A stretch of 64,000 nt of DNA from Arthrobacter gandavensis. GTDB taxonomy: Bacteria; Actinomycetota; Actinomycetes; Actinomycetales; Micrococcaceae. Each line of letters begins with the position of its first letter. Within the stretch, counting starts at the first letter, position 1. A program made the position numbers and the translations under genes. The stretch lies in the NCBI RefSeq assembly GCF_009192735.1, contig NZ_VTFU01000001.1, positions 310,001 through 374,000 of the forward strand, given 5' to 3'. Positions 10,700-58,215 of this stretch are shown one piece after another. The notes under the pieces are model-generated. The model was not told where the DNA came from. It saw only the letters and a list, made by a program, of their open reading frames with translations, and ran no database searches.

Positions 10700-10720
10700 G
10701 CAGCTGGCGGGACAAGCAAG

Positions 10721-10898
10721 GCAAGACAGCCAACAAAACAAGGCAAGACAGAAGACAGCCACACAGAAAACGGCAAGACAGGCAACAAAACAAGGCAAGA
10801 CAGAAGACAGCCACACAGAAAACGGCAAGACAGCCAACAAAACAAGGCAAGACAGAAGACAGCCACACAGAAAACGGCAAGACAGGCAACAGGCAGCC
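10721..10898 (+). repeat. 52-bp tandem array, T-free, downstream of pyrD
   Basis: There are three full 52-bp units starting at 10721, 10773 and 10825 and a partial fourth from 10877. Each begins GCAAGACAGSCAACAAAACA and ends CACACAGAAAACG. The copies differ by one base (S = G or C). The plus strand has no T at all from 10706 to 10908. Units are head-to-tail without spacers, so this is not CRISPR. It occupies the space between the pyrD stop and the terminator hairpin. Confidence 0.95.
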
Positions 10899-10923
10899 AA
10901 CGGCCAGCTAACAGCCAGACAGA

Positions 10924-10955
10924 AGAAGGGCCGCTCCGGGGAGCGGCCCTTCTTT
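10924..10955. terminator. Strong terminator between convergent pyrD and DUF3043 gene
   Basis: A 14-bp perfect stem: AGAAGGGCCGCTCC (10924-10937) with GGAGCGGCCCTTCT (10940-10953), followed by TTGGTT on the plus strand. It can serve pyrD (+) and, in the other direction, the convergent gene. Confidence 0.85.
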
Positions 10956-10956
10956 G

Positions 10957-11008
10957 GTTCTGCTGAGTGGTTCTGCCGGGAATTTGTTCTGCCGGCAATC
11001 TGTTCTGC
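10957..11008 (-). repeat. Short array next to the DUF3043 stop side
   Basis: GTTCTGC occurs at 10957, 10970, 10986 and 11002 (spacing 13, 16, 16), usually within TCTGCYGGSAATYTG-like units. On the minus strand it is a GCAGAAC array located after the DUF3043 stop, so the shared terminator is flanked by one array on each side. Confidence 0.7.
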
Positions 11009-11054
11009 TAAGGATCTGTCCAGCCGCACATCCGCGGTGCTGGAACCCGTGGGG

Positions 11055-11654
11055 TTATTCGGGCTTTTCGCCGCGCTTGACGAGTGCCTTGGGAAGGCGG
11101 AAGCGGCGCAGCTGCAGGGCGCGGGACACGCCATACCAGACATCGCCGGAGTTGGGACCGCCAAACTTCTCCGTCAGCCGGCGGCGCAGGAGGGCACGCA
11201 GGATGAAGGAATCCAGGATGACGGCCAGGATGAGGACCCAGAACGCGAGCATGACGATGCTCTGAACAGTCAGGTTCTGGATAAAGCTGACCACCACAAA
11301 GACGAGGGCGGCAATCATGACAAACTCGCCGAGGTTCCAGCGGGAATCCACCACGTCGCGGATGAACCGGCGCTGCGGTCCCTTGTCCCGCAGCGGGAGG
11401 TAACGCTCATCGCCGGTATCCAGAGCAGCGCGGGTCTTCAGGCGTTCCTCGCGCAGGGCCTCCCGGCTGGCGTTTTTCGCCGCTTTGCGGTCAGTGGGAA
11501 CCAAGGGGCGCTGGCGCGCTGCGACCTGGTCCCGGCGTTTGGGCGTGGGTGCTCCCTTCCCCGCGGCAGTGCGGGCTGGGCTGGTCTGGGCTGCTGCGGC
11601 AGCCTGGTCCACAGTTTCCTGCGCGGTGGGCGCTTCATTCTTTCGTCCGAACAC
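11055..11654 (-). CDS. DUF3043 family membrane protein
   Basis: 199 residues from a GTG at 11654. A charged N-terminal half (VFGRKNEAPTAQET..., KAAKNASREALREERLKTRA) is followed by GDERYLPLRDKGPQRRFIRDVVDSR and two hydrophobic segments (EFVMIAALVFVVVSF; SIVMLAFWVLILAVILDSF), then a basic tail. This matches DUF3043, an actinobacterial family of unknown function usually found near the dipeptidase and HesB genes, as here. TATCCT ends 6 bases before the GTG on the minus strand, suggesting a leaderless mRNA. Further in-frame sequence upstream overlaps the divergent dipeptidase gene and is a shadow. Confidence 0.82.
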   Translation of the reverse strand: MFGRKNEAPTAQETVDQAAAAAQTSPARTAAGKGAPTPKRRDQVAARQRPLVPTDRKAAKNASREALREERLKTRAALDTGDERYLPLRDKGPQRRFIRDVVDSRWNLGEFVMIAALVFVVVSFIQNLTVQSIVMLAFWVLILAVILDSFILRALLRRRLTEKFGGPNSGDVWYGVSRALQLRRFRLPKALVKRGEKPE

Positions 11655-11715
11655 CCCTCTAGGATACCTTGGCGGCGGCGGCGGCGGACCGGGTGCCCGC
11701 ATGTACTGTTTTGTT

Positions 11716-13122
11716 ATGACTTTGAACCCAGAATCATCCTCGTCGTCAGTGGATACCGGCGCCCTTCGCTCCGCCGTTGACGCCGATTTCCCCCGCATAG
11801 TTGAACAGCTGAAGTCCCTGGTCTCGATTCCCGGCATCGCCTGGGACTCGTTTGATCCGGAGCGGCTGAATGAGAGTGCCGCGGCCGTTGCGGAGCTCAT
11901 CCGCGGCGCCGGACTGTCGGACGTGCAGATCCTGCGCGTTGACAACAACGGCAAGCCCGGCGGCCCCGCCGTCGTCGCCCGCCGCCCGGCGAAGGCCGGA
12001 AAGCCCACGGTCCTGCTGTACGCCCACCATGATGTGCAGCCGCCGGGGGACCTGTCCCTGTGGGAGACGGAGCCCTTCACGGCGACCGAGCGCAACGGCC
12101 GTCTGTTCGGCCGCGGCGCGGCTGACGACAAGGCTGGAATCATGGCGCACGTCGGTGCGCTGCGGGCACTGGATGAGGTGCTGGGGGAGGAATCCGGCGT
12201 CGGCATCACCCTCTTCATCGAAGGTGAGGAAGAGGCAGGGTCACCCACCTTCCGCTCATTCCTGGAGACCTACCGGGACCTGCTGGCGGCCGATGTCATT
12301 GTCGTGGCCGACTCCGGCAACTGGAAGGTCGGAGTGCCGGCCCTGACCACGAGCCTGCGCGGCCTGGTGGACGGCACCGTGGAGGTGCAGGTCCTGGATC
12401 ATGCGGTCCACTCCGGGATGTTCGGCGGGCCGGTGCTGGACGCGCCCACACTGTTGGCACGCCTGATTGCCACCTTCCACGACGACGCCGGGGACGTCGC
12501 CATCGAGGGCCTGGTTTCCTCCGACACTGCGGCGGTGGAATACGAGGAAGCGGACTTCAGGGCTGACTCCTCAGTGCTCGACGGCGTACAGCTCGCCGGC
12601 ACCGGCTCGATTGCTTCCCGGCTGTGGACGAAGCCGGCACTGTCCATTATTGGCATCGACGTACCCACGGTTGCCATGTCATCGAACACCATCCAGCCCA
12701 AGGCACGCGCCAAGTTCAGCCTCCGGCTTGCTCCCGGGCAGGACCCCGCGGAGGCCATGGCCGCCGTTGAGCGCCACATCCAGGCCAATGCGCCGTTCGG
12801 TGCCAAAGTCACGTTCACGCCGGGGGAGCAGGGCCAGGCATTTGCCACGGACACCTCTGCCCCCGCGGCACGGACGGCACTGTGGGCCTTGAAGGAAGCC
12901 TGGGGCGGCGTTGACCCGGTGGAATCCGGAATGGGCGGGTCCATTCCGTTCATCGCGGATCTCACCGAGCTGTTCCCTGCGGCGCAGATCCTCATCACCG
13001 GAGTCGAGGATCCGGACTCCCGGGCGCACAGCGCCAACGAGTCCCTTGACCTCGGCGACTTCCGCAACGCGGTGCTTGCCGAGGCACTGCTGCTGGCCAG
13101 CCTGGCCAGGGAAGGGCTCTAG
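11716..13122 (+). CDS. M20 family dipeptidase/metallopeptidase
   Basis: 468 residues from ATG 11716. Metal ligands are visible: YAHHDVQPP (His105, Asp107), GRGAADDKAG, IEGEEEAGS (general base Glu and ligand) and the C-terminal AHSANES. A dimerisation domain lies near residues 215-370. Such enzymes hydrolyse dipeptides with two Zn ions in the cytoplasm. TACTGT at 11704-11709 ends 6 bases before the ATG and there is no SD site, so the message may be leaderless; ATG 11701 is an alternative start. It is divergent from the DUF3043 gene with only 61 bases between starts. Confidence 0.9.
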   Translation: MTLNPESSSSSVDTGALRSAVDADFPRIVEQLKSLVSIPGIAWDSFDPERLNESAAAVAELIRGAGLSDVQILRVDNNGKPGGPAVVARRPAKAGKPTVLLYAHHDVQPPGDLSLWETEPFTATERNGRLFGRGAADDKAGIMAHVGALRALDEVLGEESGVGITLFIEGEEEAGSPTFRSFLETYRDLLAADVIVVADSGNWKVGVPALTTSLRGLVDGTVEVQVLDHAVHSGMFGGPVLDAPTLLARLIATFHDDAGDVAIEGLVSSDTAAVEYEEADFRADSSVLDGVQLAGTGSIASRLWTKPALSIIGIDVPTVAMSSNTIQPKARAKFSLRLAPGQDPAEAMAAVERHIQANAPFGAKVTFTPGEQGQAFATDTSAPAARTALWALKEAWGGVDPVESGMGGSIPFIADLTELFPAAQILITGVEDPDSRAHSANESLDLGDFRNAVLAEALLLASLAREGL

Positions 13123-13169
13123 CAGCCCCGCATCCCGAGGTTTTAGGCAGCGTCTTCGTCAGCACCGCG

Positions 13170-13199
13170 GCCGGGTCCGGAAATCTTTTCCGGCCCGGC
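13170..13199 (+). terminator. Hairpin after the M20 dipeptidase gene
   Basis: GCCGGG-T-CCGGAAA (13170-13183) pairs with TTTCCGG-CCCGGC (13187-13199): 13 pairs with one bulged T and a 3-nt loop. No T-run follows. Confidence 0.5.
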
Positions 13200-13314
13200 T
13201 GCGTTGCCTCTGGGTGCATGCACCGACGTACCATGGAGAATGAACTGGCCCGGGACTTGCGGGGGAGCGCAACTGCTCTCCAGCGCACGGACCACGTGAA
13301 GAAAGAGAGAAGCA

Positions 13315-13716
13315 ATGAGTACTTCCACCAGCGAAACCGGCACCGGCGTGGACACGGCAGCAGCTGCCGCCCCGGAAACGGAGCTGCCGACCCACGAAGT
13401 TGCCCTCTCCGACGTTGCCGCCGGGAAGGTGCGCAGCCTGTTGGAGCAGGAAGGCCGAACCGATCTGCGGCTTCGCGTGGCTGTCCAGCCCGGCGGCTGC
13501 TCCGGCCTGATTTACCAGCTGTACTTTGACGAGCGCGTCCTTGACGGCGACGCCGTCCGGGACTTCGACGGCGTCGAGGTCATTGTGGACAAGATGAGCG
13601 TGCCGTACCTGTCGGGTGCCTCCATTGACTTTGAGGACACCATCTCCAAGCAGGGGTTCACCATCGACAACCCCAACGCGGGCGGATCGTGCGCCTGCGG
13701 CGACTCGTTCCACTAA
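13315..13716 (+). CDS. erpA: Iron-sulfur insertion protein, HesB/IscA/ErpA family
   Basis: 133 residues preceded by a purine-rich RBS (GAAGAAAGAGAGAAG). The A-type carrier core is present: VAVQPGGCSGLIYQLYFDE and the C-terminal GGSCACGDSF, giving the three conserved cysteines. The first 25 residues are a low-complexity Thr/Ala/Glu tail. It delivers Fe-S clusters to apoproteins in the cytoplasm. The position just before the cytochrome oxidase genes is conserved in actinobacteria (Rv2204c neighbourhood). The paralogue name erpA versus iscA is by family habit. Confidence 0.88.
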   Translation: MSTSTSETGTGVDTAAAAAPETELPTHEVALSDVAAGKVRSLLEQEGRTDLRLRVAVQPGGCSGLIYQLYFDERVLDGDAVRDFDGVEVIVDKMSVPYLSGASIDFEDTISKQGFTIDNPNAGGSCACGDSFH

Positions 13717-13731
13717 GCTCCGTCCCGGGTA

Positions 13732-13750
13732 CCCCGTTTCACTAACGGGG
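13732..13750 (+). terminator. Small hairpin after erpA
   Basis: CCCCGTT (13732-13738) pairs with AACGGGG (13744-13750) around TCACT, 15 bases past the stop; no T-run. Weak candidate terminator ahead of the ctaC promoter region. Confidence 0.35.
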
Positions 13751-13928
13751 AGCCCGCGGCCGCAGGTCCGTAACACACGGTATTTTGCGGGAACGCGGTG
13801 CGGTCTGTCACTGGATGGCCACGCGTGCGGGTAAGCTCTACACGTAGTAGTAAAACTGATCGTGCGCAGTTGGGGGATTTTTCTGCCTGCTGTGCCGCAC
13901 TTGCACGTAACAAGAGGAAGGGCCGTCT

Positions 13929-14783
13929 GTGAGTTCGCAGGACCGAACCAGCAGCCGACGCGCCAGGATCTTAAAGATCTCAGCCGTAACGTCGGCCGGC
14001 GCGTTGTTTTTATCGGGTTGTTCGTCAGAAGTCCAAAGAGGCTGGTTGCCCACGGAACGCGACATGACCAACCACACCGGCCGAATCATGGACCTGTGGG
14101 TCAATTCATGGATTGCGGCCCTGGCGGTTGGCGTGCTCACCTGGGCACTGATCATTTGGTGCATCGTCGCTTACCGCCGCCGGAAGAACGAAACCGGCTA
14201 CCCGCGGCAGCTGAGCTACAACCTTCCCCTGGAGATTTTCTACACGGCCATTCCGCTGTTCATGGTGCTCGTGTTGTTCTACTTCACGGACCAGGACATC
14301 CGCGCCATCAGTGAGCGCGTTGATGACCCGGACGTCGTCGTTGACGTCCGCGGCAAGCAGTGGTCCTGGGACTTCAACTATGTCAATGAGGACAAGTATG
14401 ACCTCAACGTCCAGGTGAACCTGGACGGCACGGAAAAGTCCGAGTCGGACATGCCGACCCTGTACCTGCCCGTCAACCAGACCGTTGAGCTCCAGCTGAA
14501 CTCCCGCGACGTGCAGCACTCCTTCTGGGTTCCCGCCTTCCTGCAGAAGATGGACCTCTACCCGGGGCGCACCAACTACATCAACATCACTCCCGGCATC
14601 GAGGGCACCTACGAAGGTAAGTGCGCCGAGCTCTGCGGCGAGTACCACTCGGAAATGCTCTTCAACGTCAAGGTTGTTTCGGAAGCTGAATACGACGCTT
14701 ACATGAACACCCTGCCTGACGGCCAGGTCGGATCCGAGTACGACCGCGTGTACAACTCAGAATCAAGCGAAGTAAGGAGGTAG
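13929..14783 (+). CDS. ctaC: Cytochrome c oxidase subunit II (aa3-type), lipoprotein
   Basis: 284 residues from GTG 13929, with AGAGGAAGGG as RBS. A signal sequence ends in the lipobox LSGC (Cys31). Two membrane segments follow, then a periplasmic-side cupredoxin domain. The CuA site is complete: CAELCGEYHSEM plus the His in DVQHSFWVP. Subunit II takes electrons, in actinobacteria directly from the diheme cytochrome of the bcc complex. It starts the ctaC-ctaD-ctaF operon (9 bases to ctaD). Confidence 0.96.
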   Translation: MSSQDRTSSRRARILKISAVTSAGALFLSGCSSEVQRGWLPTERDMTNHTGRIMDLWVNSWIAALAVGVLTWALIIWCIVAYRRRKNETGYPRQLSYNLPLEIFYTAIPLFMVLVLFYFTDQDIRAISERVDDPDVVVDVRGKQWSWDFNYVNEDKYDLNVQVNLDGTEKSESDMPTLYLPVNQTVELQLNSRDVQHSFWVPAFLQKMDLYPGRTNYINITPGIEGTYEGKCAELCGEYHSEMLFNVKVVSEAEYDAYMNTLPDGQVGSEYDRVYNSESSEVRR

Positions 14784-14792
14784 GAGGAAGCT

Positions 14793-16514
14793 GTGACTAC
14801 TCTCGAATACACTTCGGAAGATACTCAAGTTGCACCGCGCGTCGTCCCCGTCTCCAAGGGACGCATCATCGTCAGTTGGATCACCTCCACTGACCACAAG
14901 ACCATCGGGTACATGTACCTGATCGCGTCATTCATTTTCTTCTGTCTCGCAGGCGTGATGGCCCTGGTCATCCGCGCCGAGCTGTTTGAACCCGGTATGC
15001 AGATCCTGCAGACCAAGGAGCAGTACAACCAGCTGTTCACCATGCACGGCACGGTGATGCTGCTGATGTTCGCCACCCCGCTGTTCTCCGGCTTCGCAAA
15101 CGTCATGATGCCGCTGCAGATTGGCGCACCGGACGTTGCGTTCCCGCGTTTGAACGCGCTGGCCTTCTGGTTCTTCCTCTTCGGCAGCACCATTGCCGTT
15201 GCCGGCTTCATCACCCCGCAGGGCGCCGCATCCTTCGGCTGGTTTGCCTATGCGCCGCTGTCCAACACCACCTTCTCTCCGGGTGTTGGCGGAGACCTGT
15301 GGGTCTTCGGCCTGGCCCTGTCCGGCTTCGGTACCATCCTTGGCGCGGTGAACTTCATCACCACCATCATCTGCATGCGTGCCCCCGGCATGACCATGTG
15401 GCGCATGCCGATCTTCACCTGGAACACCCTGGTGACCGCCATCCTGGTCCTGATGGCGTTCCCGCCGCTGGCCGCAGCACTGTTTGCACTCGGTGCGGAC
15501 CGCCGCTTCGGAGCACACATCTTTGACCCCGAACGAGGCGGTGCCATCCTGTGGCAGCACCTGTTCTGGTTCTTCGGCCACCCCGAGGTTTACATCATCG
15601 CGCTGCCGTTCTTCGGTATTGTTTCGGAGATCTTCCCGGTCTTCAGCCGCAAGCCGATCTTCGGATACAAGGGCCTGGTTTACGCCACCATTGCGATTGC
15701 CGCCCTGTCCGTGACTGTGTGGGCACACCATATGTACGTCACCGGCGCTGTCATGCTGCCGTTCTTCTCCTTCATGACCATGCTGATCGCGGTGCCAACC
15801 GGCGTGAAGTTCTTCAACTGGATCGGCACGATGTGGCGGGGGTCCATCACGTTCGAGACACCCATGCTGTGGAGCATCGGGTTCCTGATCACGTTCCTCT
15901 TCGGCGGCCTGACCGGCATCATCCTGGCCTCCCCGCCGCTGGACTTCCACGTTTCCGACACCTACTTCGTGGTGGCACACTTCCACTACGTGATCTTCGG
16001 AACCGTTGTCTTCGCGATGTTCGCAGGCTTCTACTTCTGGTGGCCCAAGTGGACCGGAAAGATGCTCAACGAGCGTCTGGGCAAGATCCACTTCTGGATG
16101 CTGTTCGTCGGCTTCCACGCCACGTTCCTTGTTCAGCACTGGCTCGGCGTCCTCGGCATGCCCCGCCGCTACGCCGACTACCTGCCGGAGGACAACTTCA
16201 CCCTGATGAACCAGTTCTCCACCTTCGGCTCCTTCCTGCTGGGTGCATCGATGATCCCGTTCTTCTGGAACGTGTACATCACCTGGCGCCACGGCAAGAA
16301 GGTTGAAGTTGATGACCCGTGGGGCTTCGGTGCATCGCTGGAATGGGCCACCTCGTGCCCGCCGCCGCGCCACAACTTCACGTCCCTGCCGCGTATTCGT
16401 TCCGAGCGCCCGGCACTGGACCTGCACCACCCTGAACTGCAGCAGACGGTGACCGACACGTCGGCCGCCGGCAAGGTCTTCGGACCGGGCGACCGTAAGG
16501 AGAAAGTCAATTGA
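14793..16514 (+). CDS. ctaD: Cytochrome c oxidase subunit I
   Basis: 573 residues from GTG 14793 behind AGGAGG. Twelve membrane segments are expected. The haem-copper ligands are visible: the haem a His in [24 protein letters not shown] (CuB His cross-linked to Tyr), AHHMYVTG and [10 protein letters not shown] (haem a3 and a His). It is the catalytic proton-pumping subunit. The stop overlaps the ctaF start as TTGA. Confidence 0.97.
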
Positions 16515-16912: not shown

Positions 16913-16959
16913 GGCTTCCGCACCAATCTCCCGGGATTGAACCGGAAACAGAACACCCG

Positions 16960-16998
16960 GCAGGGGACCCGCACACGGTGCGGGTCCCCTGCTGTTTA
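16960..16998 (+). terminator. Strong intrinsic terminator after ctaF
   Basis: A perfect 15-bp stem, GCAGGGGACCCGCAC (16960-16974) with GTGCGGGTCCCCTGC (16978-16992), loop ACG, followed by TGTTTAAT. Confidence 0.92.
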
Positions 16999-17118
16999 AT
17001 GCGCACTGCCAAGGCTTAATGTGCACTGCAAGGACTTAACGTGCGCTGCCAAGGCTTAATGTGCACTGCAAAGTGGACTTATTGTGCGCTGCAAGGACTT
17101 AACGTGCACTGCAAGGCG
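16996..17118 (+). repeat. 20-bp tandem array after the ctaF terminator
   Basis: Six units start at 16996, 17016, 17036, 17056, 17079 and 17099, consensus TTAAYGTGCRCTGCMAGGMC-like (TTAA, then GTGCACTGC or GTGCGCTGC, then AAGGC or AAGGAC). The fourth unit carries a 3-base insertion. Each unit has a TAA and an almost palindromic GTGCAC. The rest of the stretch to the GntR start (17119-17217) shows no feature I can support. Confidence 0.93.
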
Positions 17119-17217: not shown

Positions 17218-18081
17218 ATGAAGCACCACCGCCGAGGGAAGGAACCGGATGCGCAGGATGACGGACCCCAGGATTCGGCGCAGCTGATGCACCAGGCGTT
17301 CAAGAATTTCCCCGACCTGCTGGACCCGGTTTCGGATGTGGCAAAGCACCTGCAGCTGCAGAACATACTGCGGCGGTTTGTGGACCAGCACGCCGCGGCA
17401 GGCGCCGCCATCCCCAGTGAACGCGTGTTGGCCGAGCACTTCGGCGTGGCGCGTATGACGGTGCGCCAGGCAATTGATGCCCTGGTGGCCGATGAAGTGC
17501 TTGAACGCGTTGTGGGGCTTGGCACCTTCGTGGCTCGTCCCAAGCTGGACCTGCAGGTGAAGCTCACGTCTTACAGCGAGGAAATGCACCGCCGAGGGAT
17601 GGTGCCTGATGCGCGCGTCCTCAGCTTTGAACAAATTGGCGCATCACGCCTCGTGGCGCGTGAACTGCAGATTGACCCGGGCCAGCCGGTCATCCGGTTC
17701 CGCCGCCAGCTGCTGGCGGACGGCGAACCCATGAGCGTGGACGAAAACTTCATTCCGGCCACGCACGTCCCGGGGATGCTCGATGAGGAGCCGCCCACGT
17801 CGCTGTACCGGGTGCTCAGCGAACGCTACGGCATGGTGATGGAATGGGGAGAGGACACCATCGAAGCAACCGCAGCATCGGCCTCGATCGGGCGGCTCCT
17901 CAATGTCGAGCTTGGCGCCCCGCTCCTGAAGATCCAGCGTCACGCGTATGTGGCACGCGCCATGGTGGACTATTCGGTCTCGTACTACCGTGCGGACCGG
18001 TACAAGCTTTGGGTGCCCCTCCAGCGGCCTGGAATGCGCACTCCGCGCTCCTATCACCCCGGCCGGCATCCGGGCTCCTGA
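17218..18081 (+). CDS. GntR family transcriptional regulator (HutC/UTRA type)
   Basis: 287 residues from ATG 17218; ATG 17287 is possible. The wHTH region contains IPSERVLAEHFGVARMTVRQAIDALVADEVLERVVGLGTFV (cited in part: MTVRQAIDALV). A UTRA ligand domain follows (LTSYSEEMHRRGM, VIRFRRQLLADGEPMSVDENF, DYSVSYYRADRYKLWVPLQRP). UTRA regulators usually sense sugar phosphates or amino-sugar phosphates (as NagR/YvoA). No target operon is adjacent, so the effector is unknown. The upstream in-frame extension is encoded by the repeat array and is not credible as protein. Confidence 0.85.
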   Translation: MKHHRRGKEPDAQDDGPQDSAQLMHQAFKNFPDLLDPVSDVAKHLQLQNILRRFVDQHAAAGAAIPSERVLAEHFGVARMTVRQAIDALVADEVLERVVGLGTFVARPKLDLQVKLTSYSEEMHRRGMVPDARVLSFEQIGASRLVARELQIDPGQPVIRFRRQLLADGEPMSVDENFIPATHVPGMLDEEPPTSLYRVLSERYGMVMEWGEDTIEATAASASIGRLLNVELGAPLLKIQRHAYVARAMVDYSVSYYRADRYKLWVPLQRPGMRTPRSYHPGRHPGS

Positions 18082-18224: not shown

Positions 18225-18785
18225 ATGAACATCACCGTGATGTACCACCGGGACAGCAAGGGGGTCCTGCACTTCCGCGAGGCCATGTACGACCCCGAGT
18301 CCGAAGAATTCATGATCAACCAGGGCCCTGTTGGCCACATGGGGAACAGCAGCGTTGTTGCCAATATTGACGAGGCGGCCGCTGACAAGAAGTTTGCAGC
18401 CTTCGCTGAGAAGTCGGCGGAGCTGGGCTATGCGGAACTGCCGCCCGAAGAGCAGCACTGGGTTGTGGCGCAGTATGCCCTGAAGTCGGCCGAAGGCACG
18501 GAGCGTGACCGGTACCTCGAGTACAAGGCCCGCACCGCGCTGGCCTCCTACTTCTCCTGGCGGGGTCTGGGGACGGTCGAAGAGAGCGAATTCGTGCCCG
18601 GCAAGCTGAACATTTTCTGCCTGGTTCCGGATGTGCCCAAAGCGGTGAAGGGCATGCTCGTGGTCCTGCGCGACGCGAACCTGGACTTCACCAAGCTCAG
18701 TGTCGGCTCCTCGCCCTTTGCCGAGCCCGGCAATTGGAAGCGGCGGCATCCGCTGCCGGCCAAGAAGCCCTTCGTTCTGGACTAG
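18225..18785 (+). CDS. Conserved-looking protein of unknown function
   Basis: 186 residues from ATG 18225 with a good RBS (CCAGGAGG). I do not recognise the family. There is no signal peptide or membrane segment. It begins MNITVMYHRDSKGVLHFREA, is mostly acidic, contains SWRGLGTVEESEFVPGKL in the middle, and ends with a basic tail KRRHPLPAKKPFVLD. Codon use and GC look like its neighbours, so it is very likely expressed. It sits between the GntR gene and the bcc complex genes, convergent with qcrB. A link to either neighbour is only positional. Confidence 0.75.
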   Translation: MNITVMYHRDSKGVLHFREAMYDPESEEFMINQGPVGHMGNSSVVANIDEAAADKKFAAFAEKSAELGYAELPPEEQHWVVAQYALKSAEGTERDRYLEYKARTALASYFSWRGLGTVEESEFVPGKLNIFCLVPDVPKAVKGMLVVLRDANLDFTKLSVGSSPFAEPGNWKRRHPLPAKKPFVLD

Positions 18786-18877
18786 CCGGGAGGCTGCCTG
18801 GACTAGCTGGGAAGCCTCTTAGCCGGGAAGCCTCGACTAGCCGGGAGGCTGCTCTTCCTGGACAGCCGGGAGACTCC
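18777..18877 (+). repeat. Array of the gene's own last codons plus stop
   Basis: The end of the 186-aa gene, CTGGACTAGCCGGGAGGCTGC (18777-18797; TAG is the real stop), is followed by a diverged copy at 18798-18818 and by shorter degenerate copies (TTAGCCGGGAAGCCTC, CTAGCCGGGAGGCTGC, CAGCCGGGAGACTCC) to about 18877. The first two copies keep the Leu-Asp-stop codons. Confidence 0.85.
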
Positions 18878-18890
18878 ACCGGCCGCTCGG

Positions 18891-19020
18891 CTAACGCAAG
18901 ACAAGCCCGGCTAACGCAAGACAAGCCCGGCTAACGCAAGACAAGCTCGGCTAACGCAAAACAAGCCGGGCTAACGCAAAACACGCCCGGCTAACGCAAA
19001 ACAAGCCGGGCTAACGCAAA
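18891..19020 (+). repeat. 20-bp tandem array ending in the terminator arm
   Basis: Six full 20-bp units and one half unit start at 18891 and every 20 bases to 19011, consensus CTAACGCAARACAAGCCSGG. The last half unit (CTAACGCAAA) forms the outer part of the following terminator stem. The rest of the 18786-19104 gap is made of the neighbouring array and the hairpin. Confidence 0.95.
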
Positions 19021-19060
19021 GGGAGCCGGTCAGCAGATGCTGACCGGCTCCCTTTGCGTT
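19013..19060. terminator. 23-bp perfect hairpin between convergent genes
   Basis: AACGCAAAGGGAGCCGGTCAGCA (19013-19035; first 8 bases belong to the 20-bp array) is the exact reverse complement of 19038-19060. The loop is GA, so the closing pairs probably open. T-rich ends on both strands (TTTGCGTTATT) suit bidirectional termination for the unknown gene (+) and qcrB (-). Confidence 0.9.
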
Positions 19061-19104
19061 ATTACCTGATGCTGCGTTGTTACGTCATGCTGTCCCGCGG
19101 AGGA

Positions 19105-20790: not shown

Positions 20791-20793
20791 GGT

Positions 20794-28267: not shown

Positions 28268-29584
28268 ATGACCTTGCACCTGCGGTCGGCCTGGGACCGG
28301 GTTCGTGGTTCCCGCCTGCTTCGGTGGGTGGTGGCGCTGCTGGCCGTGGTGCTGGTGATCGAATACATCGTCCTGCCGCAGCTCGGGGGTGCGGGCAACG
28401 TGGCCGGCGCACTGGTGCGCCTGCCGCCGGTGCTGCTGCTTGTTGCCCTGGTGCTGCAGGCCATGTCCCAGGCCAGCTACAGCCTGCTGACGCGTGCCGT
28501 GCTGCTGGGCGATGCCCGTCCCGGCTTTTTCACTCTGTTGCGCATCGATTTGTGCGACTTGGCCATCAACAACACGGTTCCGGGCGGGGGTGCGACGGCG
28601 GCCGCAGCCAGGTTCCGCCTGCTGACACTCTGCGGTGTGCAGTCACAGAATGCCCTCAGTGCCGCCACGATCCAGGTGGTGGGGTCCAACCTCGTGCTTG
28701 CGGGACTGTTTGCCGTGGGGCTGCTGGCGGGGCACGGAGGTGGCAGCGGCGGAAGGTATCTCAGTGTTGCCGGGACCGTTGTGCTCGTGCTTTTGGGACT
28801 ATCGCTGATCTGCCTGGTCATCCTGGAGCGGCACTTGGGCGCTGCCGTCCGTGCGGCACGGGCGGCAGCGCGCGCCGTGCGGGTGATCAAGCAGAATTCC
28901 GCGGAGCAGTTCGTGCGGACAATCGCCGCGGAAGTGCATCTGTTCCGGACCGAGCCCCGGCGATTGGGTGCGGCAGTGCTCCTTGCATCCCTGCGGTACC
29001 TGTTGAGTGCTGCGTGCCTGTGGGTCCTTGTTGCAGCGTACGGGCATGTACTTAACCCCGGGGAACTGCTCCTGGCCTACTCGCTGGCGAATCTGGTGGC
29101 GCTGGCGCCGCTCACTCCCGGAGGGCTTGGCCTGGTGGAGGCGGTCATGGTGCCCATGCTCGTCGGTTTTGGCGCACCCAACCATGTGGCGGTATTGGGT
29201 GTTCTGTCCTGGCGGATCGTGCAGTTCTGGCTGCCGATTCCGCTGGGCGGGCTCTCCTACCTGTCCCTGCGGCTGGGGGCCCTCCGCCGGCAGGCGGCCC
29301 GGAATCATCGTTCAGGGCCGGCACCAAAGACACCGGAACCAGAGGGGTCGGCACCAAAGAAACCGGCTCCAAAGAAAGAGGGATCGGCACCAAAGACACC
29401 GGAACCAGAGGGATCGGCACCGAATTCACCGGCACCAAATTCACCGGCCCCGAACGCACCGGCACCGAACACACCGGCACCAAATTCACCGGCACCAAAG
29501 AAAGAGGGATCGGTGCCAAAGAAGCCGGGACCACGAACGGCGGCCGCGGGGCATCGGTCCCGCGGCCGCCGCCGTGCTGCTTAA
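28268..29584 (+). CDS. UPF0104-type (lysylphosphatidylglycerol synthase-like) membrane protein with repetitive C-terminal tail
   Basis: 438 residues. Residues 1-340 form an eight-helix-like membrane domain with the family motifs NNTVPGGGATAAAARFRLL and ANLVALAPLTPGGLGLVEAV. Members resemble the flippase half of MprF/AglD. From about residue 352 the protein turns into Pro/Lys/Asn-rich repeats (APKTPEPEGSAPKK, APNSPAPNSPAPNAP) and ends GHRSRGRRRAA. At DNA level this tail is a 12-bp-type tandem array followed by a 12-bp-stem hairpin, just like the noncoding 3' ends elsewhere in this window. The tail is therefore probably array plus terminator that stayed open in frame. The substrate is unknown. 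Confidence 0.8.
   Translation: MTLHLRSAWDRVRGSRLLRWVVALLAVVLVIEYIVLPQLGGAGNVAGALVRLPPVLLLVALVLQAMSQASYSLLTRAVLLGDARPGFFTLLRIDLCDLAINNTVPGGGATAAAARFRLLTLCGVQSQNALSAATIQVVGSNLVLAGLFAVGLLAGHGGGSGGRYLSVAGTVVLVLLGLSLICLVILERHLGAAVRAARAAARAVRVIKQNSAEQFVRTIAAEVHLFRTEPRRLGAAVLLASLRYLLSAACLWVLVAAYGHVLNPGELLLAYSLANLVALAPLTPGGLGLVEAVMVPMLVGFGAPNHVAVLGVLSWRIVQFWLPIPLGGLSYLSLRLGALRRQAARNHRSGPAPKTPEPEGSAPKKPAPKKEGSAPKTPEPEGSAPNSPAPNSPAPNAPAPNTPAPNSPAPKKEGSVPKKPGPRTAAAGHRSRGRRRAA
29321..29526 (+). repeat. Tandem array inside the 3' end of the UPF0104-type gene
   Basis: Degenerate 12-base units around CCGGCACCAAAT/G and a longer 27-30-base unit (CGGCACCAAAGACACCGGAACCAGAGGG at about 29320 and 29383, in part) repeat in frame, encoding PAPN, PAPK and PEPEGSAPK. 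The strand is T-poor, like the arrays near pyrD and the unknown 186-aa gene. Confidence 0.85.
29539..29570 (+). terminator. Terminator-like hairpin translated within the ORF end
   Basis: GGCGGCCGCGGG (29539-29550) pairs with CCCGCGGCCGCC (29559-29570), loop GCATCGGT. It lies inside the last 15 codons of the UPF0104-type gene. No T-run follows. Confidence 0.55.
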
Positions 29585-29670
29585 TACGTGCTGCCTAACG
29601 TGTTAATAAGTGCCTAACGTGCTCCCATGCCCGCTTAGTGTGAGGCGCGTTAGTGTGAGGTGCGGTCCGG
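29585..29670 (-). repeat. Degenerate array downstream of the SDR stop
   Basis: Read on the minus strand after the SDR stop: CCTCACACTAACGCG then CCTCACACTAAGCGG, and CACGTTAGGCA twice plus related CACGTATTAAGCAGC. The units contain TAA or TAG. The region fills the gap between the convergent UPF0104-type and SDR genes. Confidence 0.65.
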
Positions 29671-43667: not shown

Positions 43668-43735
43668 GGCTGCTGTTTGCCGCCTGCTGTTTGCGGGCTG
43701 CTGGATTCCCGGCCTGCTCTTTTCAGACTGCTGGG
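43668..43735 (-). repeat. Degenerate array downstream of rhaM
   Basis: On the minus strand: GAAAAGAGCAGGCCGG, GAATCCAGCAGCCC, GCAAACAGCAGGCG, GCAAACAGCAGCCG, four units of 14-17 bases. CTCGAC also repeats across the rhaM stop (CTCGACTAGGCTCGACGG). Confidence 0.65.
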
Positions 43736-46628: not shown

Positions 46629-46701
46629 GCTGACAGCAGGCTCGATGACGGCAGGCTGGACGAAGCCAGGCTGGATGACGTCATGTACGGCAGACGTCAT
46701 G
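46629..46701 (-). repeat. Degenerate array at the end of the ROK regulator gene
   Basis: On the minus strand the stop region CATGACGTC is repeated 16 bases later, then GTCATCCAGCCTGGC, TTCGTCCAGCCTGCC and GTCATCGAGCCTGCT follow (15-base units) before the next gene. Confidence 0.65.
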
Positions 46702-47957: not shown

Positions 47958-48016
47958 TTAGAGCAGGCGGCGGTGCTCCGCTAGAGCAGGCGGTGGTGCT
48001 CCGCTAGAGCAGGCGG
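47958..48016 (-). repeat. Array repeating the SGNH gene's last codons and stop
   Basis: Three copies of CCGCCTGCTCTAG (minus strand) lie at 48016-48004 (the true gene end: Arg-Leu-Leu-stop), 47993-47981 and 47970-47958 (ending TAA), exactly 23 bases apart, with CGGAGCACC between them. Confidence 0.92.
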
Positions 48017-48633
48017 TTGGCTACCGCGTCCAGCCAGGCCTCGGCAATCGCCGCGTGTCCCAGGGCCGTGGGGTGAACCCCGTCGTCGGCCAGGGTCTGC
48101 GGTGGTGCGCCTGCCGCAACGCGTGCGTTCAGGATCTCGTCGGTGCGGACAAGCACGGCGCCGAACTCCTTGGCCAGCCGGCGGACGGCGGCAATCTTGG
48201 GATCGAGGTCCTGCCGCCAGGCCTGCTGGTCCGGGTTCACCGGAAGCAGGAACGGTTCCATCAGGATGACGAGGGTGTCCGGCGCCAGCCGCTCCAACAG
48301 GGACCGGTATCTCGCCAGGAAGGTTCCTTGAGCGGTTTCCTGGCCGGCATCGTACCGGCGCCAGGTGTCGTTGATTCCGACCATGACGGACACGGCGTGC
48401 GGCGATTCCGCCAGCACGTCGGCACTCCAGCGCCGGGCGAGATCCTCCGTCCGGTCTCCACCGACGCCGCGGTTGAGGACCGCTGTTCCGGCAAGGGATC
48501 CACTCTCGGCCAGCAGGCGGACATAGCCGTTGCCCAGGCCCGCACCCGCGCCCTCACGCCGTCCGCAGTCGGTGACGCTGTCGCCCGCGAACACGAGGAG
48601 GTGCCCGCCAAGGAGCGGTTGGGCAGCAGTCAT
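48004..48633 (-). CDS. SGNH/GDSL hydrolase, probable carbohydrate esterase
   Basis: 209 residues from ATG 48633 with AAGGAGA 6 bases away. All four SGNH blocks are present: FAGDSVTDCGRR (Ser), RGVGGDRTEDL (Gly), VGINDTWRR (Asn) and DDGVHPTALGH (Asp/His). No signal peptide, so it acts inside the cell. Beside a mannoside importer it may remove acetyl groups from imported manno-oligosaccharides; this role is inference. It leads the transcript into the ROK regulator. Confidence 0.87.
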   Translation of the reverse strand: MTAAQPLLGGHLLVFAGDSVTDCGRREGAGAGLGNGYVRLLAESGSLAGTAVLNRGVGGDRTEDLARRWSADVLAESPHAVSVMVGINDTWRRYDAGQETAQGTFLARYRSLLERLAPDTLVILMEPFLLPVNPDQQAWRQDLDPKIAAVRRLAKEFGAVLVRTDEILNARVAAGAPPQTLADDGVHPTALGHAAIAEAWLDAVANRLL

Positions 48634-52674: not shown

Positions 52675-53606
52675 GCATTGACCAACCCGTGAACATGACG
52701 GAACACGGTCCGCGGAACAGCCGCTCCGACCGCGCCGCGGAAGCCCGCAGCCATCCTGTCCTCACTATCGAGGACTTCAGCGTGGAGTATCAGGGCGAGC
52801 GCACTGTCCAGGCGGTGCGCAACGTGTCCCTGGCCCTGGGCCGGGGAGAAATCCTGGGCCTTGCCGGTGAAAGCGGATGCGGCAAGTCCACTCTGGCCTA
52901 CGGAGTCAACCGCCTGCTGAAACCGCCGGCGGTGATTACTTCCGGGGGAGCCTCCTTCCACTCCCGGGAGGGCTACAGCATTGACCTGGCGGAGCTGTCG
53001 GGTGAGGAGCTTCGGGCTTTCCGCTGGGACAAAATCTCGATGGTCTTCCAAGGTGCCATGAACTCCCTGAACCCGGTCATCTCCATCCGGTCCCAGATGG
53101 AGGACATCTTCACCACGCACCGGCCGGACATGTCCAAGAAGGACCGCCGGGAGAAATGCGCTGAACTGCTGGAACGCGTGGGCGTTGACCGTTCCCGCCT
53201 GCTCTCCTATCCGCACGAGCTGTCCGGCGGAATGCGCCAGCGGGTCATGATCGCCATGGCAATGGCCCTGGATCCGCAGGTGATGATCATGGATGAGCCA
53301 ACCACCGCCCTGGACGTGGTGGTGCAGCGCGAAATCCTGCGCGAAATCACCAGGCTGCGCGAAGAGCTTGGTTTCGCCGTCATCTTCATTACCCATGACC
53401 TGCCGCTGCTGCTGGAAATCAGCGACCGCATCGCAGTGATGCGCGAGGGAGAGATCGTGGAACTGGGCGACGCCGTAGAGCTTTACACCAACCCGCAGCA
53501 TGAGTACACACGCACGCTGCTGGCCTCCTTTCCCAGCCTCACCGGTGAACGCGGGGCCTTTGTCCGCGGAACCGTCATCGACCATGAAAGCGGAGTGAAG
53601 CGATGA
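52671..53606 (+). CDS. ABC transporter ATPase (DppD/OppD type)
   Basis: 311 residues from GTG 52671. Walker A GESGCGKST, Q-loop MVFQGAMNSLNPV, signature LSGGMRQR, Walker B VMIMDEPTTALD, and the His switch ITHDLPL. The C-terminal ends near YTRTLLASFPSL with a shortened oligopeptide-type extension; the cysteines of the Fe-S site found in some OppD proteins are missing. It pairs with the next ATPase (ATGA overlap). Confidence 0.93.
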   Translation: MSIDQPVNMTEHGPRNSRSDRAAEARSHPVLTIEDFSVEYQGERTVQAVRNVSLALGRGEILGLAGESGCGKSTLAYGVNRLLKPPAVITSGGASFHSREGYSIDLAELSGEELRAFRWDKISMVFQGAMNSLNPVISIRSQMEDIFTTHRPDMSKKDRREKCAELLERVGVDRSRLLSYPHELSGGMRQRVMIAMAMALDPQVMIMDEPTTALDVVVQREILREITRLREELGFAVIFITHDLPLLLEISDRIAVMREGEIVELGDAVELYTNPQHEYTRTLLASFPSLTGERGAFVRGTVIDHESGVKR

Positions 53607-54394
53607 GCGTCCTCGAAGTCCGGGACCTGGTCAAGGAATACCGTCTGCGGGAAGGACGCCGCTCGCGCGTCCTCACCGCAGTCAATAAGGTCAGCTTTTC
53701 CATTGAAACCGGACGCACCGTCGCCCTGGTCGGTCAAAGCGGCAGCGGCAAATCCACGCTCGCGAAGCTTCTGATGCAGCTGGAAAAACCGACATCGGGG
53801 CAGATCGTCCTGGACGGCAGCCCTGTCCAGCGCCGCGGCGCCGGGCTGAAGCAGTACCGCAGCGATGTCCAGATGGTTTTCCAGGACCCGTTTGCGTCGC
53901 TGAATCCTTACCACACCATTGCCCACCACCTGGGGCGGCCCTTGATCCTGCACGGCAAGGCGTCGGGACGCGACGAGGTCATGGCCGGCGTGCACCGCCT
54001 GCTGGAACGGGTCAGGCTCGAACCGGACATGGCAGGGCGCAAGCCGCATGAGCTCTCCGGCGGACAGCGCCAGCGCATCGCCATCGCCCGGGCGCTGGCA
54101 CCTGAACCGCGCATTCTGGTGGCCGATGAACCCGTCTCGATGCTGGACGTGTCCATCCGCCTCGGCGTCCTGAACCTGCTCGCCGACCTGCAGCGCGAAG
54201 AAAACCTCGGGGTCTTCTACATCACCCACGACCTGGCGACCGCACGGCACTTCTCCGACGACATCCTGGTGATGTTCAAAGGCGACATTGTCGAGCGGGG
54301 GCCCGCCGACGACGTCATCCTCAACCCCCGCCACGAGTACACGCAGCTGCTGGCGGAAGCGGCACCCAACCCGGAAAAACGCGTCAGCGCCTAA
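53603..54394 (+). CDS. ABC transporter ATPase (DppF/OppF type)
   Basis: 263 residues. Walker A GQSGSGKST, MVFQDPFASLNPYHT, signature LSGGQRQR, Walker B ILVADEPVSMLD (Ser-Met in place of the more usual Ser-Ala) and ITHDLATARHF. Second nucleotide-binding subunit of the importer. It is followed after 51 bases by the GH2 gene. Confidence 0.93.
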   Translation: MSVLEVRDLVKEYRLREGRRSRVLTAVNKVSFSIETGRTVALVGQSGSGKSTLAKLLMQLEKPTSGQIVLDGSPVQRRGAGLKQYRSDVQMVFQDPFASLNPYHTIAHHLGRPLILHGKASGRDEVMAGVHRLLERVRLEPDMAGRKPHELSGGQRQRIAIARALAPEPRILVADEPVSMLDVSIRLGVLNLLADLQREENLGVFYITHDLATARHFSDDILVMFKGDIVERGPADDVILNPRHEYTQLLAEAAPNPEKRVSA

Positions 54395-54445
54395 ACCCGC
54401 CAGCACCCACTCCACTTTCAGAACCATGTTTGGAGCTCCACCGCC

Positions 54446-57199
54446 ATGACACACACGAATGCCCAACACTCTTCCCTGGACCTCGACGGCCGCTGGGATC
54501 TTTCCTGGCAGGACGGCCCCGCGGATACCCCCGCCGGGATCCGGTCCGGAACCTCTCTGGCGGGTACCGTGCCCGGACAGGTGCACACCGATCTGATGGC
54601 CGCCGGCCTGCTTGAGGACCCGGATACCGGATTCGGCGAACTGGACCAGTATTGGATTGGGCATTCCACCTGGACCTACACCCGCACCTTCTCCTGGCCG
54701 GCAGCTGGAGGAACCGCGGAAACCCCGGAAACCCAGCCGGAACCCCGGACTTTCCTGGTGGCTGACGGCCTGGACACGTTCACCGTCGTCCACCTGAACG
54801 GCCAGGAAATTGCGCACACTGCCAACCAGCATGTCGGCTGGCGCTGGGACGTCACCGACCTCCTGGCCGTTGGGGAAAACATCCTGTCCATCACCTTCGG
54901 CTCGGCCTGGGACGCGGCCCACGAATGCGAGCGCGCCGTTGGCGAGCTCCCGCGCCCCTACGACGAGCCTTACGCCTACGTCCGCAAGAGCGCCTGCAAC
55001 TTTGGGTGGGACTGGGGACCGCACTACATCACGGCCGGGATCTGGCAGCCCATCCGGCTGGAAACCTGGTCCGGGGCACGGATCGCGTCGGTCCGCCCCG
55101 CCGTCGAGCTGACCCGCATCTCTGCGGACGGCTCCGGGGAACCGGCTGCAGCTGCGGCCGATGTGCGGGTCACGGTGGGCGTCGATCTACCGGAGCTTCC
55201 GCCCGGCGCCGCGGCACCCGGACTGACGCTGACCGCTGTGCTGACCGATCCCGAGGGCCGGGAAAGCGCGCGCGCCACGGTCCCCGTGGACTCCGCCGGT
55301 GACACGTCGGTGCAGCTCAGCGTCGCCGCACCCCGCCTGTGGTGGCCGGCCGGCCTGGGCGCACAGCCCCTCTACGGGCTCCGGGTCGAAGTGCAGCGTG
55401 ACGGGACTGTGCTCAGCGCGGAAAACCGGCGCCTGGGCCTGCGCACCGTCGCCGTCGATGAAAGCCCGGTCGACGCCGATAAGGGGCAACCCGGCGGGGG
55501 CGGGAGTCCCACCGCCGGCTGGGCGATCGTGGTCAACGGCCGCCGGGTGCGGATCCGCGGCTACAACTGGATTCCCGATGATCCGTTCATCGCCGAGGTG
55601 ACCGATGAGCGGCTCGGACAGCGCCTGGACCAGGCCGTCGACGGCGGGGCGAACCTGCTGCGTGTCTGGGGCGGCGGCTATTTCTCCACTGAAGCCTTCA
55701 TGAACGGCTGCGATGAGCGCGGCCTGATGGTCTGGCACGATTTCCTCTTCGCCTGCAGCGCGTACGACGAATCACCGGAGATGGTTGCCAGCGTTACCCG
55801 CGAGGCCGAACAGGCGGTGGCCCGGCTGGCGGCGCACCCCAGCCTGGTGCTGTGGTGCGGCGGCAACGAGTGCGTCTGGGGTGACTACGACTGGGGATGG
55901 CGGGAAATCCTGCAGGGCCGGCCGTGGGGTGCCAAGTACTACACCGAGGTCCTTCCCGGGGTCATCGACCGGGTGGACCCCGGCCGGCCCTACCTTCCCA
56001 ACAGCCCATGGTCCGGATCCCTGGACGTGCATCCCAATGATCCGGGCAGGGGCCCGGTGCATATCTGGACGGTCTGGAACAATCTCGACTACGCCCACTA
56101 CCGCGACGCCGATCCCGCGTTTGTCTCCGAAATGGGCTGGTGTGCCCCACCCGCGTGGAGCACGCTGCGGTCCGCGGTGACGGAAGGAGAGCTGCTGCCG
56201 GAGAATCCCCAGGTGGCGCACCACATGCGGGCCGACCGCGGCATGGAAAAACTGGCCCGGGGCATCCAGCCGTACTTTGGCGTTCCAGACACGGCCGAGG
56301 ACTGGCACTACCTCGCCCAGGTGGTCCAGTCCCGGTCGCAGAGCGCGGGTGCCGAGTGGCTTCGCTCCCGCGGGCGCTGTGCCGGCGTCGTCATCTGGCA
56401 GCTGAACGACTGCTGGCCCGTGCTCAGCTGGTCCGCGGTGGACGGCGCCGGAATCGAAAAGCCTGTGTTCTTCGGGCTGCGCCGGTCCTTCGCACCGGAA
56501 CTGGTGACCATTGTTCCCGTCGCACCCGGAGGCACGGACGATCCCACGGGGACCGGGGGACTGGAACTGGTGGCGGTCAACGACGGCACCGGCCCCTGGA
56601 CCGCCGACGTCCGGGTCCGTCGGCTGCGCGCTGACGGCACTGAAGTGGCCGCCGGGAACTACCGGCTTCAGACGGCCGCCGACTCAACGTCCCGCGTGCG
56701 GCTCGACTCAGCGCTCGCATCGCCGCGGAACGGCACGGAAGAGTTCCTGGTGGGCGACTATGGCCCTGCCGGACAGGAACAGCGCGCGCTGTGGTTCTTT
56801 ACGCCGGACGCGGCCTTTGACGCCGAAGCGCCACGCTTCACGTCCTCCGTCGAACTCGCCGGCGGCGCACTGCACATTACGGTCCGTGCCGAAACACTCC
56901 TGCGGGACGTCTGCCTCTTTGCCGACCGTCTGGCCGTCGATCTGAACGTTCCGGCGCCGCTGCTGCGGGTCGACGACATGATGCGCACCATCCTCCCCGG
57001 GGAGGCGGTGACCTTCACCGTTTCCCGGCGCGACGGCGGGACGCTGGACACGGCACCGCCGGCGGCAGGAGCGTGGCCGGTGCTGCGCTGCATCGGCGAC
57101 AGTAACCCTGAGGGCAATCCCGGCGGCTCCGACAGCAGCAGCCGCGCCGTTACGGCCGGAACAGCCGTGCCTGCGGGCTCTGTGCGGCGGCAGCTGTGA
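54446..57199 (+). CDS. Glycoside hydrolase family 2 beta-mannosidase
   Basis: 917 residues without signal peptide, so cytoplasmic. N-terminal jelly-roll (LDLDGRWDLSWQDGPA, GTVPGQVHTDLMAAGLLEDP, DGLDTFTVVHLNGQEIA), Ig-like domain, then the TIM barrel with GYNWIPDDPFI and LLRVWGGGYF. The acid/base Glu475 is in LWCGGNECVWG and the nucleophile Glu562 in FVSEMGWCAPP. These motifs are those of beta-mannosidases rather than beta-galactosidases. It would release mannose from the non-reducing end of imported beta-manno-oligosaccharides. Its stop overlaps the kinase start (GTGA). Confidence 0.92.
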   Translation: MTHTNAQHSSLDLDGRWDLSWQDGPADTPAGIRSGTSLAGTVPGQVHTDLMAAGLLEDPDTGFGELDQYWIGHSTWTYTRTFSWPAAGGTAETPETQPEPRTFLVADGLDTFTVVHLNGQEIAHTANQHVGWRWDVTDLLAVGENILSITFGSAWDAAHECERAVGELPRPYDEPYAYVRKSACNFGWDWGPHYITAGIWQPIRLETWSGARIASVRPAVELTRISADGSGEPAAAAADVRVTVGVDLPELPPGAAAPGLTLTAVLTDPEGRESARATVPVDSAGDTSVQLSVAAPRLWWPAGLGAQPLYGLRVEVQRDGTVLSAENRRLGLRTVAVDESPVDADKGQPGGGGSPTAGWAIVVNGRRVRIRGYNWIPDDPFIAEVTDERLGQRLDQAVDGGANLLRVWGGGYFSTEAFMNGCDERGLMVWHDFLFACSAYDESPEMVASVTREAEQAVARLAAHPSLVLWCGGNECVWGDYDWGWREILQGRPWGAKYYTEVLPGVIDRVDPGRPYLPNSPWSGSLDVHPNDPGRGPVHIWTVWNNLDYAHYRDADPAFVSEMGWCAPPAWSTLRSAVTEGELLPENPQVAHHMRADRGMEKLARGIQPYFGVPDTAEDWHYLAQVVQSRSQSAGAEWLRSRGRCAGVVIWQLNDCWPVLSWSAVDGAGIEKPVFFGLRRSFAPELVTIVPVAPGGTDDPTGTGGLELVAVNDGTGPWTADVRVRRLRADGTEVAAGNYRLQTAADSTSRVRLDSALASPRNGTEEFLVGDYGPAGQEQRALWFFTPDAAFDAEAPRFTSSVELAGGALHITVRAETLLRDVCLFADRLAVDLNVPAPLLRVDDMMRTILPGEAVTFTVSRRDGGTLDTAPPAAGAWPVLRCIGDSNPEGNPGGSDSSSRAVTAGTAVPAGSVRRQL

Positions 57200-58110
57200 T
57201 TGCCGGCATCGAGACCGGCGGCACGAAAGTTATCTGCGCCATTGCCGCTTCCTCCGCCCCCGGCACGATCGTGGAGCGGCTGCGGATTCCCACGACCTCT
57301 CCCGCGGAGACCCTCGGGGCGGTGCGGTCCTTTCTGGAGCGCTACGCCTCCGCCGGTGAGCTGGACGCCGTCGGCCTGGCAGCCTTCGGGCCGGTGAACG
57401 TGGACCGTTCCTCGCCGTCCTACGGCTGGATCACGTCCACTCCCAAAGCGGGATGGCGCAACACCGATATTCCCCGCGCCCTGGGCCTCGGGGATGCCAT
57501 GCCGCTGCAGGTGGTCTCCGATGTGACCGGCTCGGCCGTGGGGGAGCAGCGGTCCGGAGCGGGGATCGGCATGCGGAACATTGCGTACGTGACGGTGGGG
57601 ACGGGAGTAGGCGCTGGTTTTGCCGCCGACGGCGTTCCCTTCCTGCAGCGCAGCCATCCTGAAATGGGGCATCTGCCGGTGCGCCGGTATCCGGGCGACA
57701 CCTTTCCCGGGAACTGCCCGTTCCACGGGGACTGCCTGGAGGGACTGGTGTCGGGCCCCGCAATCCGGGCCCGGTGGGGCCGTCCGGGCGAGCAGTTGGG
57801 TGCCCTGCGGTCCGAAGCAGTGCCCCTGCTGGCGTTTTATGTGGCGCAGCTGCTCGCTGCCGTCACCTATACCGTTGCTCCGGACCGGATCGTCTTGGGA
57901 GGCGGCGTGCTGAAACTGCCCGGGTTGCTGCAGGCATCCCGGGAAGGGCTCGCGGGTGTGGTGGGCGGGGCGCTGGAAGGGCATCCGCTGACCCTGCCGG
58001 GCAGCGGTTACGTCTGCAGCCCGGTGCTCGCAGACCTGGCCGGGGTCCACGGAGCCCTGTTCCTGGCCCACGATTTGGCCGGAAACAGGGCTCCGCTTAC
58101 CGCTGTCTGA
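57196..58110 (+). CDS. ROK sugar kinase (fructokinase/mannokinase, GmuE-like)
   Basis: 304 residues from GTG 57196. AGIETGGTKVICAIA (ATP loop), GLAAFGPVNVDRSSPSYG, VSDVTGSAVGEQ, VTVGTGVGAGF and the zinc motif HPEMGHLPVRRYPGD plus CPFHGDCLEGLVSGPAI match the fructokinase/mannokinase group. Next to a beta-mannosidase it most likely makes mannose-6-phosphate. A mannose-6-phosphate isomerase is not in the window. Confidence 0.88.
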   Translation: MIAGIETGGTKVICAIAASSAPGTIVERLRIPTTSPAETLGAVRSFLERYASAGELDAVGLAAFGPVNVDRSSPSYGWITSTPKAGWRNTDIPRALGLGDAMPLQVVSDVTGSAVGEQRSGAGIGMRNIAYVTVGTGVGAGFAADGVPFLQRSHPEMGHLPVRRYPGDTFPGNCPFHGDCLEGLVSGPAIRARWGRPGEQLGALRSEAVPLLAFYVAQLLAAVTYTVAPDRIVLGGGVLKLPGLLQASREGLAGVVGGALEGHPLTLPGSGYVCSPVLADLAGVHGALFLAHDLAGNRAPLTAV

Positions 58111-58215
58111 GGCGCTGGTCCCCAAGGACGCTCGTCCCCCGAGGAGGCTCGCCCCAAAAGGACGCGGGCCCCAAGGACGCTCGTCCCAAAAGGAAGCCGG
58201 CCCCAAGGTTCGGGA
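58111..58215. repeat. Degenerate array between kinase and aldo/keto reductase genes
   Basis: Units of CCCCAAGGACGCTCGTCCC occur at about 58119 and 58169 with degenerate copies between and after (GAGGAGGCTCGCCCC, AAAAGGACGCGGGCC, AAAAGGAAGCCGGCC, CCAAGGTTCGGGAC). It fills the gap between two convergent genes; no clear terminator hairpin is seen, though GGACG/CGTCC pairs could fold. Confidence 0.8.

Follow-up and report, generated by a model that had tools for sequence, protein, structure and literature searches.

Mycobacterial interspersed repetitive units (MIRU) are tandem units in the intergenic spacer of an actinobacterium and make up one dispersed family, and REP/BIME elements often lie near gene ends. 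In Yersinia pestis, 88 VNTRs have been described, over half of them intergenic, with units mostly of 7–21 bp that are divisible by three where they lie in ORFs; as far as the accessible portion of that report extends, stop codons are overlapped by ten of the loci and start codons by six, diversity is lower within 400 bp of a 5′ end, which was ascribed to purifying selection, some stop-overlapping loci show a low diversity that its authors had not expected, and gap orientation is not dealt with (PMC3689786). Borg tandem repeats, according to the accessible part of their description, have perfect, A-biased units and have been proposed to be functional (PMC9879509), while REP/BIME units are, in the accessible part of PMC2884548, a dispersed family of palindromes. 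Among the titles listed by literature searches, none deals with arrays after stop codons in actinobacteria, which is no proof of absence, and the position of repeats relative to stops is not treated in the accessible parts of PMC2884548 or of a Renibacterium VNTR typing study (PMC4029610).

The arrays described here, which occur in a window of 64 kb (the whole stretch of DNA analysed) and in the genome around it, resemble the Y. pestis VNTRs in their head-to-tail units, spanning 10–46 bp here (5–95% range of the 84 arrays near stops), and obey the same rules of frame and position, so far as the accessible text of PMC3689786 allows the comparison; the Y. pestis loci are polymorphic among strains, whereas the present arrays were compared between species only. 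With Borg repeats, as the accessible part of PMC9879509 presents them, they share the lack of a common consensus, a recent and independent origin, the keeping of frame within ORFs and, in some cases, a beginning inside a gene end, but their copies are imperfect and have no strong base bias. Like MIRU they are tandem and intergenic, and like REP/BIME units they lie between genes, but they share no consensus by eye and are not a dispersed palindromic family. We file them as minisatellites, being head-to-tail arrays with units of about 10–100 bp that keep the frame inside ORFs and not outside; a VNTR is defined by variation among strains, and the copy-number differences known here are between species only. 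With a probability of roughly 80%, they are lineage-specific minisatellites of the VNTR type, produced by widespread tandem duplication and filtered by selection, an ordinary process that is seen unusually clearly in this genome. Replication slippage, or a similar tandem duplication of 10–50 bp, would hit DNA widely; selection would clear almost all events inside genes except those that keep the frame, and would also clear events near starts, promoters and ribosome sites. Survivors would then pile up in spacer whose length is free, from the stop up to the hairpin, beyond it, and over the stop codon itself, the first copy of a stop-crossing array keeping the stop.

The window is part of contig C4 in the 3.72-Mb genome (12 contigs) of an Arthrobacter-like bacterium, and the genome sample comprised 1.25 Mb of this contig (34% of the genome), with 300001–310000 omitted. 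Genes were predicted with our own codon-pair caller, without curation, after which TRF was run and periods under 7 were dropped. Gaps longer than 1500 bp were dropped for the per-gap orientation counts and the taxon shares, those longer than 1000 bp for the distance profile and the convergent/tandem ratio, those longer than 800 bp for the density on either side of hairpins and those longer than 600 bp for the counts of hairpin presence. Within the window, TRF reports 11 noncoding arrays (score at least 50, period at least 7), of which 8 lie in five of the seven convergent gaps, 3 in three of the 20 tandem gaps and none in the nine divergent gaps (Table 1). Every array named in the initial annotation, which had placed them at or just beyond stop codons, is present in the TRF list at a score of at least 40, and the one at 19055–19092 is additional; the placement was loosely worded, since the nearest named stop is between −14 (overlap) and +102 nt away. 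Copies are imperfect, with TRF matches of 77–97% for several window arrays, and the gene names are backed by Pfam.

Table 1. Tandem arrays and hairpins in the window, with TRF scores and neighbouring genes
Feature	Position	Strand	Details
52-bp unit × 3.3	10720..10891		TRF 330; 20 nt past pyrD stop; convergent gap pyrD/DUF3043
Terminator-like hairpin, bidirectional, conserved	10923..10955		Read in sequence; between the two pyrD/DUF3043 arrays
16-bp unit × 2.4	10970..11008		TRF 64; 46 nt past DUF3043 stop
Terminator-like hairpin after ctaF	16960..16992	+	Read in sequence; similar hairpin in G002
~20-bp units (TRF period 20 or 63)	16996..17117		TRF 173; past ctaF hairpin
16-bp unit × 2.9	18796..18846		TRF 67; 10 nt past stop of 186-aa gene; unit similar to final codons plus stop of this gene
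20-bp unit × 6.7	18888..19020		TRF 217; leads into hairpin
Terminator-like hairpin	19012..19061		Core kept in G002
18-bp unit × 2.1	19055..19092		TRF 55; between hairpin and cytochrome b stop
15-bp coding array	29318..29501	+	TRF 118; Pro-rich C-terminal tail, UPF0104/LPG_synthase_TM gene
15-bp unit × 2.0	29635..29664		TRF 53, marginal; 6 nt past SDR stop
30-bp (or 14-bp) unit × 2.3	43668..43734		TRF 76; 25 nt past rhaM stop
15-bp unit × 3.3	46631..46680		TRF 65; 16 nt past ROK regulator stop
23-bp unit × 2.6	47959..48017		TRF 111; unit includes last codons and stop of GDSL/SGNH gene
17- or 32-bp units	58113..58208		TRF 81 and 109; convergent gap ROK kinase/AKR

The array pattern is genuine and extends beyond the window. 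Across the 1.25-Mb sample, arrays occur in 24 of 113 convergent, 46 of 457 tandem and 6 of 165 divergent gaps (convergent versus divergent, p = 5.4e-6), and with the window excluded the counts are 19 of 106 for convergent and 6 of 156 for divergent gaps (p = 0.0002). Expressed per spacer, there are 31 arrays in 16.2 kb of convergent, 49 in 81.5 kb of tandem and 7 in 37.5 kb of divergent DNA, and five rounds of dinucleotide shuffling of these spacers yield almost none (means of 0.4, 0.8 and 0.4, respectively), which bears out the claim that tandem arrays at gene 3′ ends are real. The convergent density used here is the 1.92 arrays per kb of the whole 1.25 Mb; in the first 464 kb it is 2.93. Arrays cover 8–9% of bases at 20–60 nt after stops versus 1–2% at 20–60 nt before starts, and in divergent DNA 150–250 nt from starts only 3 of 4554 bp belong to arrays, which tells against duplication filtered by selection unless constraint there is strong.

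The frame signature separates arrays inside genes from those outside. Periods of arrays not in gaps are distributed 149/7/4 modulo 3, versus 33/24/27 for the 84 arrays near stops, so the events visible within genes are mostly those that preserve the frame. Stop-crossing arrays show no such preference (6/8/12), in line with the expectation that their first copy retains the stop. Among the 154 arrays lying wholly inside genes, 26 fall in the first tenth of the gene and 24 in the last tenth, and both protein ends thus tolerate them. One coding array of the window encodes the repetitive Pro-rich tail of the UPF0104/LPG_synthase_TM protein, beyond its Pfam domain.

Replication slippage tolerated in the 3′ spacer, the simple mechanism offered in the initial annotation, is the best supported, and we infer that the positional bias is made by selection rather than by the local mutation rate, with replication slippage as the probable DNA step. 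Units of 10–50 bp may in any case exceed the reach of mismatch repair. NucS was found in the genome, MutS was not detected in it, and NucS is stated, in the accessible part of PMC8228993, to be unable to correct indels, so that slippage loops would escape canonical mismatch repair. Other actinobacteria share this background, which is a candidate contributor only and, being shared, cannot explain the level of arrays seen here. The low diversity of some stop-crossing loci in Y. pestis, as given in the accessible text of PMC3689786, counts against a simple picture of tolerance.

That a local mutational hot spot at gene ends promotes slippage, whether through R-loops in the transcribed but untranslated 3′ RNA, head-on convergent transcription or replication stalling at hairpins, is an unlikely alternative. 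Arrays flank hairpins at 10.7–11.0 and 18.8–19.1 kb of the window, where array words resemble, and recur in, the hairpin arms. In 118 tandem gaps of this genome and its relative G002 that have a hairpin near the stop, however, array bases make up 6.7% (256/3798 bp) of the DNA from stop to hairpin and 6.4% (561/8804 bp) of the DNA past the hairpin, and drop, to 1.1% (63/5910 bp), only within 60 nt of the start that follows. Tandem gaps of at least 200 bp likewise contain 3.0–6.1% of array at every distance from the stop, but just 2 of 4200 bp over the final 30 nt ahead of the start. Arrays shun starts more than they gather at stops, and the absence of thinning past the terminator or with distance from the stop speaks against any process acting on gene ends; a gene-end element is ruled out on the same grounds, and the proposal that a repeated process is aimed at gene ends or terminators is not supported. 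Convergent gaps with a detected hairpin carry arrays less often (10/71) than those without (20/62), which rules out hairpin-driven slippage as a rule in the sample, and of 90 arrays pooled from this genome's sample and G002, 61 lie in gaps where no hairpin was detected. Hairpins do stand beside arrays at 10.9, 17.0 and 19.0 kb, as the initial annotation had noted, but this is not the rule, and with equal density on both sides of the hairpin the arrays do not qualify as a terminator-associated element.

One point in favour of such a hot spot is the orientation of the gaps. In this genome, arrays make up 11.7% of convergent spacer (113 gaps) versus 4.4% of the spacer in 206 tandem gaps once the 60 nt next to a start are set aside, a ratio of 2.64 (95% CI 1.45–4.46), whereas pooled other actinobacteria have 3.8% versus 3.2%, a ratio of 1.19 that is not significant (CI 0.63–2.21). 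The idea that noncoding DNA after stops is richer in arrays than the rest holds against divergent and start-proximal DNA and hardly at all against the remaining tandem spacer, with the convergent gaps of this genome as the exception. Their 2.64-fold excess goes beyond what simple tolerance would give and would reflect either a hidden constraint on tandem spacer here or a duplication rate raised by convergent transcription in this lineage. The second is doubtful; on that reading the zone where opposing transcripts collide would be a mutational hot spot in which the spacer is continually rewritten around a fixed terminator. Convergent gaps are in any event a place for measuring slippage rates in MutS-less bacteria.

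Duplication filtered by selection also accords with the rapid turnover of the arrays between related genomes. Of 28 other genomes of the genus, the nearest, G002, carries the DUF3043 protein most like the one here (98%). In it 233 of 273 gaps were placed as orthologues, with flanking DNA 90% identical on average; at least four of the G002 gaps are longer than 1.5 kb and are likely to contain additional genes. Arrays are absent from G002 in 17 of the 22 orthologous gaps that have one here, and absent here in 13 of the 18 that have one in G002. Five gaps carry arrays in both genomes, two of them with a shared unit in different copy number (by eye, between species) and three with different units, and for several arrays G002 shows, by eye, one copy of the unit or part of one. 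The median difference in length between orthologous gaps, computed on gaps of at least 30 bp that differ by less than 600 bp, is 34 bp for convergent gaps (n = 30) versus 1 bp for tandem (n = 107) and 1 bp for divergent gaps (n = 39). Read by eye, the hairpins are kept between this genome and G002 while the surrounding spacer is rewritten; the gap around the hairpin core at 19012–19061 is 79 bp long in G002 versus 319 bp here. The gap between pyrD and DUF3043, readable in 21 of 22 genomes and 49–355 bp long, has a terminator-like hairpin in 21 of 21 species (by eye), and arrays in only 4 of 21, with units unrelated by eye and thus of independent origin: in this genome on both sides of the hairpin, in G018 (16 bp × 5.6), in G016 (15 bp × 4.3, crossing the stop) and in G011 (14 bp × 2.0). 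The result is a clear and checkable picture of how bacterial spacers grow, in which hairpins stay fixed and their flanks are replaced by recent, unrelated duplications.

With this turnover, a conserved functional 3′ element, serving as insulation, as back-up stop codons or as unstructured RNA that aids termination, is very improbable, even though the arrays adjoin stops and hairpins. Sense stop triplets are slightly more frequent in arrays than in other 3′ spacer (29.7 versus 21.3 per kb), but part of this small excess arises because some units copy the stop of their own gene, and the longest array of the window (10720–10891) holds no stop triplet by eye; the suggested role in multi-frame stops is therefore rejected. 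An unstructured lead-in to the hairpin, also suggested at first, fares no better, the mean fold z-score being −0.97 for arrays versus −1.34 for other 3′ spacer (p = 0.35), and arrays moreover occur past terminators too. A set of 69 arrays has no sense base composition in common, A outnumbering T in 36 and T outnumbering A in 29, C outnumbering G in 40 and G outnumbering C in 26, and neither this mixed composition nor the folding fits a Rho-site-like or unstructured RNA. No shared consensus was apparent by eye across these 69 arrays, and a genome-wide search, made for the array at 18888–19020 only, returned no second copy apart from a 14-nt chance match, which agrees with the initial view that the arrays are unrelated in sequence and speaks against a dispersed repeat family of the MIRU or REP type. 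These results advise caution against reading 3′ arrays as regulatory elements. An origin as assembly artefacts, for which one could cite the draft state of the genome in 12 contigs, is barely credible, as similar arrays occur in G002, G018 and G016, at loci on single contigs of 3.88, 3.73 and 3.08 Mb, and the longest window array measures only 172 bp.

Taxa were also compared by the proportion of array bases in the 150 nt that follow stops and in the 150 nt that precede starts, using small group samples of 54–587 kb that come mostly from one locus. This proportion is 6.7% after stops and 1.8% before starts in this genome and 4.1% and 1.8% in G002. Within the genus, six close members give 1.4% and 1.0% and fourteen further ones 2.7% and 0.4%; the family, with 20 genomes, gives 2.3% and 1.6%, and the named groups give 1.1–5.8% and 0–1.3%. 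Two genomes of the same class have 6.0% and 5.8% (G107) and 0.5% and 0% (G119). The bias towards stops over starts is common, not universal (G107 has none), and its level varies by lineage. For G002 alone, arrays in 8 of 39 convergent versus 4 of 52 divergent gaps do not differ significantly (p = 0.12), and 100 kb of Escherichia coli contained one array, in 1 of 11 convergent gaps. The arrays are not a single-lineage phenomenon, since they also occur near stops in other actinobacteria, at a lower or, in G140, a higher level. G140 (L245-L252), from another family of the same order, has a post-stop share of 14.1%, twice that of this genome, and 2.7% before starts. For the present group, the arrays would offer ready VNTR markers.

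Some observations concern individual genes of the window. The 186-aa gene at 18225–18785, between the ctaF region and the cytochrome b gene, matches no Pfam family, although protein comparison finds its product again in 21 genus relatives, at the same place. The start of the GntR/UTRA regulator was first called at 17104, inside the array at 16996–17117, and is likelier to be at 17218, which matches the ATG that ends the orthologous G002 gap. A second ctaD-like gene is present elsewhere in the genome (G000:C8:77630-79345), and its protein is 90% identical to that of the window copy.
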